Shown here in pieces: positions 14,692 through 15,834 of a stretch of 35,530 nucleotides of DNA (position 1 is the first letter of the stretch; every line of letters starts with the position of its first letter). The notes beneath the pieces are model-generated. The model had not been told where the DNA came from. It was given only the letters and a program-made list of their open reading frames with translations, and did no database searches. The DNA is from Rubrivivax sp. GTDB lineage: Bacteria > Pseudomonadota > Gammaproteobacteria > Burkholderiales > Burkholderiaceae_C. Location of the stretch: the NCBI GenBank assembly GCA_016789865.1, contig JAEUPC010000092.1, positions 1 to 35,530 of the forward strand. The letters are read 5' to 3'. Position numbers and translations under genes: made by a program.

Positions 14692-14811
14692 TCAATCCTC
14701 GAACGTACGGTACCCCGAGATCATCGTGCTGACAATGCTCTGGCGACCCATGATGTCCTCGCGGATGGCGGCATGGACATGAAGGATGACGAAGATCAAG
14801 GTCAGCCGCAG
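14692..14811 (-). pseudogene. hoxZ: 3' remnant of [NiFe]-hydrogenase cytochrome b gene (hoxZ/hupC)
   Basis: Thirty-nine codons ending in TGA at 14692-14694 encode the C-terminal tail of the di-haem cytochrome b that anchors membrane-bound hydrogenase. The tail reads as a piece of transmembrane helix ([13 protein letters not shown]) followed by [18 protein letters not shown] and YRTFED. This ending is characteristic of HoxZ/HupC/HyaC, where the IREDIM...STM..GYR pattern follows the last helix. Upstream the similarity stops, and the same frame runs into the cbbR stop at 14880-14878. No start codon, haem-ligand helices, or structural hydrogenase genes are present. In related operons hoxZ lies directly before the hoxM-type genes, so this is the scar of a deletion or rearrangement that removed hoxK, hoxG and most of hoxZ. 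Confidence 0.8.
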
Positions 14812-14816
14812 GCCTT

Positions 14817-14848
14817 GGCCGGGCGGGCTGCACACCCGCTCCCGGGCC
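14817..14848 (-). terminator. Hairpin after cbbR without T-run
   Basis: On the minus strand, 30 bases after the cbbR stop, a GC-rich hairpin can form: GCGGG pairs with CCCGC around a 7-base loop, extended with a bulge by GGCC/GGCC arms. No run of T follows, so it may slow or process the transcript but need not end it. Read-through from cbbR into the hydrogenase maturation operon remains possible. Confidence 0.35.
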
Positions 14849-14877
14849 TGAAAGACCGCAGTGCCGGCGGCCAGGGG

Positions 14878-15834
14878 TCAGCGCGTTGGCGATCGCGCCG
14901 CAGCGAGGGCGGCGCCGCTGCCTGGGGCAGGGCCGTTGAGGAACGCCTCGCCCTGCTCGATGAGGAAGTAGCGGAACGCCTCGGCCGCCGGCGACAGCAC
15001 GCGCGCGCCCAGGTGCACGACGTTCCAGGTGCGCACCACCGGCGTGTGGACGATGTCGAGCACGGCCAGCATGCCGGTCTTGAGTTCGAGCCCGATCGTG
15101 TGCTGCGACAGGAACGTGAGCCCCATGCCGGCGATCACCGCCTGCTTGATGGTCTCGTTGCTCGGCAGTTCCATCGCGATCGACGGCGTCACGCGGTGCT
15201 CTGCGAACCAGCGCTCCATCGCCGCACGCGTGCCCGAGCCGTCTTCACGCACGATGAACGGGTGGCGCGCCAGCGCCTCGGCCGGCGCATGCGGCGTGGC
15301 GAGCAGGGGGTGGCCCGGCGGCGCCACGAACACATGGGGGTGCGCCGCGAACGGCTCGGCGCGCGTGGCCAGTTCCTTTGGCGGTCGGCCCATGATGGCC
15401 AGGTCCACCTCGCCGGCGGACATCAGCGCCACCAGCTGGTCGCGGTTGTTGGCCAGCCGCAGCTTGACCTCCACGCCCGGGTGTTCTTCATGGAAGCGCG
15501 CCAGCAGGTGCGGCACGAAGTACTTGGCCGTGCTCACCATGCCCACGGTGAGCAGGCCGCGCTCCACGCGCTTCAGGCGCGCCATCGCGTCGTCGGCCTC
15601 TTTCAGCGCCGCCAGCAGCTTCTTCGCGTGCACGAGGAAGTATTCGCCGGCGGTGCTGAGCACGACGCTGCGGCCCTGGCGGTCGAACAACGGCAGGCCG
15701 ACCTGCGACTCGATCTCCTTGACCTGCATCGACACCGCCGGCGGCGTGAGGTGCAGCGCCTCGGCCACGCGGGTCATGTTGCCCGTGCGGGCCACTTCGA
15801 CGAAGACCCTGAGCTGGCGGAAGGTGATGTTCAT
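14878..15834 (-). CDS. cbbR: LysR-type regulator of the cbb operon, CbbR
   Basis: CbbR activates Calvin-cycle genes in response to metabolites such as phosphoenolpyruvate, NADPH or RuBP, depending on the species. The 318-residue protein opens with [20 protein letters not shown] and the winged helix-turn-helix [19 protein letters not shown] (about 30-48), typical of CbbR. The LysR substrate-binding domain follows, with [27 protein letters not shown] and [15 protein letters not shown] second in-frame ATG six bases upstream is equally possible. It is divergent from cbbL with a 192-base shared control region. It also lies upstream of, and on the same strand as, the hydrogenase maturation genes. 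Confidence 0.93.

Follow-up and report, generated by a model that had tools for sequence, protein, structure and literature searches.

The locus analysed here raises the question of how a near-complete set of maturation genes for a membrane-bound [NiFe]-hydrogenase came to stand without the genes of its enzyme, and which hydrogenase it serves. The window, that is, the whole stretch of DNA analysed (35,530 nucleotides), is the entire contig C78 of a draft Rubrivivax sp. genome (G000; 4.59 Mb, 247 contigs, 76.9% complete). By its predicted genes it carries hoxM, hypABFCDE, hoxL, hoxO, hoxQ, hoxT, and hoxV, the maturation genes of an operon of the hoxKGZM type (Table 1), and by the same predictions it lacks the hoxK and hoxG of such an operon; HoxV was the sole match to the large-subunit family within the window. 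The names hoxL/hupF, hoxV, hypF, hypC, and hoxX are putative, partly or wholly. In content and order of maturation genes, the window is like the hoxKGZ, hoxM-hyp locus of Cupriavidus necator (Ralstonia eutropha), the familiar gene order of a membrane-bound [NiFe]-hydrogenase locus, but it differs in that the structural genes are missing, hoxR is truncated, the maturation genes follow cbbR, and structural genes of another lineage lie elsewhere in the genome. In the following, type A denotes the hydrogenase lineage of the window's maturation cluster and hoxZ tail, and type B that of the hoxKGZ genes on contigs C194 and C195.

Table 1. Features of the hydrogenase maturation cluster and its junction with cbbR in the window.
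Feature	Position	Strand	Evidence or remark
hoxX, formyl transferase and enoyl-CoA hydratase domains	2230..4152	-	Pfam
hypE	4183..5235	-	TIGR02124, E 1.4e-133, over cut-off
hypD, sole one found in the genome bin	5260..6486	-	TIGR00075, single gene, two stretches
hypC	6483..6746	-	open frame MCLALPARVV... between hypF and hypD
hypF, short form, 407 residues	6750..7973	-	open reading frame and position
hypB	7970..9052	-	TIGR00073, E 1.5e-76, over cut-off
hypA	9082..9429	-	TIGR00100, E 4e-24, just below cut-off
hoxV (HupK-like)	9422..10792	-	weak NiFe large-subunit match; position
hoxT (HybE-like)	10808..11482	-	TIGR03993, E 1e-33, over cut-off; true start maybe further in
hoxR type A (rubredoxin), truncated, second scar	11463..11546	-	remnant compared with 80-residue G009 HoxR
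hoxQ type A (HupH family)	11585..12517	-	HupH_C match
hoxO (HyaE-like)	12589..13089	-	HyaE model, E 1e-11, below cut-off
hoxL/hupF (HypC-like)	13142..13546	-	open reading frame, MCIGVPMQ start
hoxM, large-subunit maturation endopeptidase	13570..14256	-	TIGR00140, E 1.7e-63, over cut-off; sole HoxM match in the genome bin
higA-like HTH gene	14253..14654	-	TIGR02607, E 1.6e-21, over cut-off; same position in G009, G027, G024
type A hoxZ 3' remnant, about 49 codons and stop	14692..14840	-	130/149 bases identical to G009 hoxZ; HoxZ search E 1.1e-15
gap from end of hoxZ homology to cbbR stop, 37 bases	14841..14877		deletion junction here or at its edges
cbbR, LysR-type regulator beside RuBisCO operon	14878..15834	-	NCBIfam CbbR model, E 3e-91 (below cut-off); Pfam HTH_1, LysR_substrate

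The gene cbbR lies directly upstream of the maturation genes on the same strand, and a scar alone separates it from higA. An earlier sequence-only reading had recognized on the minus strand the tail of a hydrogenase cytochrome b ending at the stop 14692-14694, and this was borne out: the frame is open from there back to the cbbR stop at 14878-14880, and in a whole-genome HoxZ search the peptide aligned with HoxZ residues 197-239 at 79% identity (E = 1.1e-15). The 39 or so codons given for the tail are present, but the homology of the DNA to hoxZ is longer, at 149 bases (about 49 codons), and the distance to the cbbR stop, 67 bases when counted from the 39-codon stretch, is 37 bases from the end of the homology. 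Against hoxZ of the sister genome G009, our reference for the scar and for the cluster genes, 24 of the first 36 scar bases and 106 of the remaining 113 (94%) are identical. The weak 5' part is in register and not a chance match, since its 24 matches in 38 positions were reached by only 3 of the 70,984 38-mers that the window contains on its two strands, the true site included. DNA matches to the hoxZ genes of G009 and G004 started at query bases 152 and 151, respectively, corresponding to window positions 14839 and 14840, and the 37-base gap beyond gave no alignment to G009 hoxZ and no clear one to the 3' flank of cbbR in G072, a further relative. An ordinary cbbR 3' region with no hydrogenase past was ruled out, as the fragment could be aligned with the hoxZ genes of several relatives. 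The N-terminal four fifths of HoxZ are missing (about 49 of about 239 codons remain), with only scattered residues left of the segment VHSLHRLGMW of G009 HoxZ, a histidine of which would be a heme ligand, and the remnant is not predicted to encode a full-length membrane protein.

The scar occupies the position, directly upstream of higA and hoxM, at which relatives have hoxZ. Among HoxM loci of the genome collection, of which the best 80 of 588 candidates were kept, hoxZ immediately precedes hoxM or higA-hoxM in 78, the two others being L199, where the set is inverted, and L136, which is without hoxZ; in eight of these best 80 loci, cbbR is followed by hoxK in the same direction. The G072 contig shows cbbL, cbbR, and, on the cbbR strand about 250 bases past the CbbR match, a type A hoxK (93% identity over 257 residues), within which the contig ends. 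Because the undeleted order in relatives is cbbR-hoxK-hoxG-hoxZ-higA-hoxM, some 4 kb were deleted from the window locus, in agreement with the earlier proposal that a deletion had joined cbbR to the end of hoxZ and removed the genes for both catalytic subunits. In G012, the distance from the start of hoxK to the hoxZ point matching the start of the scar is about 3.9 kb, and by the G012 distances the deletion would measure about 4 kb, or about 4.2 kb with the spacer after cbbR. Neither inversion nor transposition is needed to derive the arrangement.

A false join of cbbR to the hoxZ tail during assembly or binning, or a type A hoxKGZ set lying on a missing contig, could give the same picture, and the bin is indeed only 77% complete, with a stretch of about 141 bases breaking hoxG between C194 and C195 (G009 breaks there too). 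We nevertheless regard such an artefact as quite unlikely, given that the joined genes are those that flank hoxKGZ in relatives, that G000 contains a single match to the junction DNA, that a second deletion, in hoxR, fits the same history, and that the same join recurs in L136, which comes from another organism with another isolate name (Aquincola sp. 4_1_Oct_SF_Bin28, genome G105).

No promoter (in a simple sigma-70 scan) or terminator was found between 14600 and 15000. If the ancestor had a promoter upstream of hoxK, it has been lost from the window locus, and we infer that the maturation genes are now transcribed from cbbR, from upstream of cbbR, or from within the scar region. A RuBisCO operon (16027-21319; cbbL, cbbS, and genes for an epimerase, an AAA protein, and a fructose bisphosphatase) starts beside cbbR, which makes genes for CO2 fixation and for hydrogenase maturation neighbours. 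Immediately before hoxM, 45 of the best 80 of 588 candidate HoxM loci carry an HTH gene resembling a HigA-type antitoxin, and a HigA match also lies 3' of the type B hoxZ in G035, G026, and G010; the gene before hoxM may be an operon regulator.

Elsewhere in G000, a search for the large-subunit family returned, in addition to the window's HoxV, a hoxG split over the ends of contigs C194 and C195. The split is an assembly effect, because the stretch of about 141 bases at which it occurs is also found at the start of a G009 contig. The group 1 hoxK and hoxG genes that the sequence-only reading had proposed to look for in the rest of the genome were thus located, and the two contigs hold open hoxK, hoxG, and hoxZ frames, the HoxZ being complete with 238 residues. 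Aligned to a solved HoxK, the type B HoxK shows the motifs ECTCC and CASWGC, with the extra proximal-cluster cysteines of the O2-tolerant type, and its closest relative among solved structures is a HoxK entry, presumably that of C. necator. By these cysteines, the predicted type B enzyme is an O2-tolerant-type group 1 hydrogenase; their role in the O2-tolerant small subunit is described in PMC4257681.

The type B set is not the set that the window has lost. The HoxG and HoxZ searches covered 81 genomes of the genus, G000 among them, and in the HoxG tree the type B sequences of G000, G009, G029, G078, G010, G026, and G035 form a single clade (support 100/100). In the HoxM tree, the window groups with G009, G029, and G078 in a type A clade (99/98), most other members of which adjoin their own hoxKGZ, and the HoxM of G010, G026, and G035 stands apart. 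Both types of hoxG and hoxZ occur in the sister G009. Over 40 residues the scar tail shares 85% identity with the G009 HoxZ of type A, and over 39 residues 44% with the type B HoxZ; being closer to type A, it is not a missing end of the type B gene. Since type B is another lineage with an intact hoxZ of its own, and G009 has both types, the genes on C194/C195 differ from those deleted, and relocation of the same genes is ruled out for the set found. That the deleted type A hoxKGZ simply moved and is still served in trans, as had been considered at the outset, is very unlikely: a hoxKGZ set is present on C194/C195, but it is of type B, with a complete HoxZ 44% identical to the tail, and G009 carries it besides the type A genes. 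The earlier reading had proposed a search for a hoxZ truncated at the complementary point; the hoxZ found elsewhere in the genome is complete. There is likewise very little probability that the type A maturation genes were kept for some further [NiFe]-hydrogenase and not for type B; Hyp proteins do serve several hydrogenases in other bacteria, but the large-subunit search in G000 gave only the type B HoxG, in its two pieces, and HoxV.

Several further features were observed around the type B genes. The type B HoxG tail reads ELA-VTVR in G000, G009, G029, and G078, which have a type A HoxM, and ELVSV-VR in G010, G026, and G035, which have their own; this pattern, seen within one clade, is no more than suggestive of a co-adapted cleavage tail. 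On C195 of G000, IS3-type transposase-like fragments (recognized by eye) and then an HTH_3 domain follow the type B hoxZ (L033, 2120-3330), and no HigA match was found after that hoxZ on this contig. Near the type B hoxKGZ on C195 (L033, 6223-8070, and L120, 1479-3797), there are also multiheme cytochromes (Cytochrom_C552, Cytochrome_C7) and an iron-sulfur CCG-domain protein, perhaps the electron partners of the type B enzyme.

If the maturation genes served nothing, they would be expected to decay. Compared with G009, the 13 cluster genes, counted with higA and without hypC, contain zero internal stops and show dN/dS values of 0.06-0.48. With G012 as outgroup, 12 cluster genes accumulated 88 changes on the G000 branch and 98 on the G009 branch, with no overall acceleration in G000 and no sign of a general relaxation of constraint on the window's maturation genes. 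HoxQ had 17 lineage-specific amino-acid changes in G000 versus 6 in G009 (p = 0.035 uncorrected, non-significant after correction for 12 tests). HoxO, which is expected to serve the small subunit too, showed no excess (4 versus 3). The constraint data fit continued use of the maturation genes, and would fit a very recent loss as well. It is unlikely, in our assessment, that the genes are relics of a recent loss that serve nothing and will decay. The last 113 scar bases, still 94% identical to G009, and the broken hoxR speak for such a course; against it, the type B hoxK, hoxG, and hoxZ frames are open in G000, the sole hypD found is that of the window, and G029 and G078 have kept hoxM, hyp, and most other genes of the cluster without a type A hoxKGZ. 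Of the two fates offered by the sequence-only reading, service in trans or freedom to decay, each has something in its favour, constraint on the maturation genes on the one hand and, on the other, decay of hoxR and, in some relatives, hoxQ. Its 13 intact maturation genes do have open frames, but a fourteenth, hoxR, is truncated.

The hoxR remnant is a second scar. Most relatives have this gene for a small rubredoxin between hoxQ and hoxT; in the window, about 17 N-terminal codons are left in the open frame, the core with its four cysteines has been deleted, and no HoxR match was found. For counting, we used loci with both hoxO and hypA (90 of 107 rows), which after removal of four repeat contigs (L122, L123, L147, L173) left 86 clusters; the 17 dropped rows do not span the hoxR region (HoxR in 12, none in 5). 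The gene is missing in six of the 86, namely G000, G029, G078, and L136, which are without hoxKGZ, and G093 (on its contig C96) and G075, which have structural genes. It is thus absent from all four clusters without hoxKGZ and present in 80 of the 82 others (Fisher exact p = 7e-6, a value that is too favourable, given that related genomes do not count as independent). In most of these 82 comparison clusters, hoxM adjoins the structural genes. The distance is about 14 kb in G026; G010 has its structural genes on a different contig, and for G072 a hoxK alone was seen, again on a different contig. In the two exceptions (L108 on C96 of G093 and L109 on C364 of G075), hoxKGZ is kept and matches to hoxR, hoxT, hoxV, and hypF are all absent; G093 contains another cluster, L118, that is full.

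The type B contigs of G000, G009, G029, and G078 carry a HoxQ homologue followed directly by HoxR, and this HoxQ groups with its counterpart from the type B clusters in G010, G026, and G035 (99/99). The pair lies about 13 kb from hoxKGZ in G009, 14 kb in G000, 54 kb in G078, and 79 kb in G029, and with such separations the two form no tight unit. The type A hoxQ is gone in G029, gives a partial-length match in G078, and is present in G105. According to PMC10583674 and PMC4257681, HoxR is a rubredoxin-like maturase that enables correct coordination of the proximal cluster in air. This role, together with the type B lineage having its own copy, indicates that the vanishing hoxR is the one serving the lost small subunit.

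The arrangement is not confined to G000. A type A cluster without a detectable type A hoxG was found in G000, G029, G078, and G105, and all four have a type B hoxG. The genus-wide searches detected no HoxG and no HoxZ of type A in G029 (95% complete) or G078 (99% complete); for G105, the genome-wide comparison covered HoxG, and both hoxG pieces found were of type B. At the G105 locus L136, the order is cbbL-cbbR-higA-hoxM; the CbbR and HigA matches are about 560 bases apart, and this interval gave no significant match to hoxZ. One search behind these gene calls had a very lax threshold, and only strong matches were used. With G105 added to the trees, the HoxM of this genome joined the type A clade, and its HoxG grouped with the type B sequences of G029, G078, G000, and G009 (91/83). 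The clusters of G029 and G078 start at higA too, beside genes other than cbbR. G072 was left out of the loss count: the contig breaks fall within hoxK and hoxM, and its bin, 80% complete, yielded no type A hoxG.

Comparison with relatives had been proposed as a way to date the breakpoint. Of 26 genomes, 21 gave a usable GyrB (two had no match and three a weaker match alone), and its tree unites G000 with G009 (100/99), then with G012 (88/89), in a group with G029 and G078 (95/98). Since type A hoxZ and hoxR are still present in G009, the loss in G000 postdates the divergence of the two. The losses beyond G000 represent at least one further event, with those of G029, G078, and G105 being one, two, or three events; these three genomes lie in a poorly supported part of the HoxM tree, which makes the independence of their losses uncertain.

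Which genes, then, mature the type B enzyme? Each of 10 genomes tested yielded a single hypD, and G000, G009, G029, and G078 each yielded a single HoxM; in G000, G029, and G078 the lone hypD and the lone hoxM both lie in the type A cluster. With completeness values of 77%, 95%, and 99% for these three, a single maturation set is firm for G029 and G078 alone. Most likely, the type A cluster would mature the type B enzyme in trans.

We infer both the maturation in trans and the order of events, as follows. The ancestor would have had a type A locus for a membrane-bound [NiFe]-hydrogenase of the O2-tolerant type, in the order cbbR-hoxK-hoxG-hoxZ-higA-hoxM-...-hypE-hoxX. The lineage would also have had a type B hoxKGZ and, on the same contig, a type B hoxQ-hoxR, for which no hyp/hoxM set of its own was found. 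About 4 kb, comprising hoxK, hoxG, and four fifths of hoxZ, would then have been lost from the type A locus, with the hoxZ tail staying behind next to cbbR, and the remaining type A hoxM, hoxL, hoxO, hoxT, hoxV, hypABFCDE, and hoxX would mature the type B enzyme in trans, with the factor tied to the lost small subunit decaying, as the truncated hoxR suggests. Judged from the genomic data, the best explanation is probably such an exchange of hydrogenase structural genes, in which type A was lost and type B is served by the type A maturation genes. This explanation has its limits: with G000 76.9% complete, a type A hoxKGZ could lie in an unbinned contig, the type B hoxG is split over two contigs, and the absence of decay could merely mean that the loss is recent.

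Shared Hyp machinery of the E. coli type serves several hydrogenases, and the locus described here resembles it in that maturation genes would act on an enzyme encoded elsewhere; it differs in that, in G000, the enzyme served would have replaced the enzyme encoded next to the cluster, and that decay has set in for the factor belonging to the lost small subunit. The uptake hydrogenase of Rubrivivax gelatinosus CBS, of the same named genus as G009, is encoded in a membrane-bound hydrogenase operon with hyp2 genes, and HupI is named as the HoxR homologue (PMC4257681). According to the same source, CBS has two hyp sets (PMC4257681), whereas in G000 one hypD was found, in an operon without structural genes.

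A more general scheme, which we put forward tentatively and with rather less confidence than would be needed to prefer it, is that type B hoxKGZ borrows a resident maturation operon and thereby makes the resident enzyme dispensable, whereupon lineages delete the resident hoxKGZ and then hoxR. The maturation factors would accordingly split into exchangeable ones (HoxM, HoxL, HoxO, HoxT, HoxV, and Hyp) and ones bound to the small subunit (HoxQ and HoxR). New here are the recurrence of the pattern, the matching losses of hoxR, and the natural division between shared and enzyme-bound factors; the single elements are known biology. No published account of such a replacement of structural genes was found in the open-access literature searched, which is no proof that none exists.

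Our findings offer a natural experiment on which factors in hydrogenase maturation are shared and which are enzyme-specific. From the pattern one would predict that HoxQ and HoxR have to match the small subunit and that HoxM, HoxO, HoxV, and the Hyp proteins need not, a prediction useful for making O2-tolerant hydrogenases in other hosts. A near-complete hyp/hox cluster may accompany a different hydrogenase encoded elsewhere in the genome, so that annotation from gene neighbourhood can mislead.
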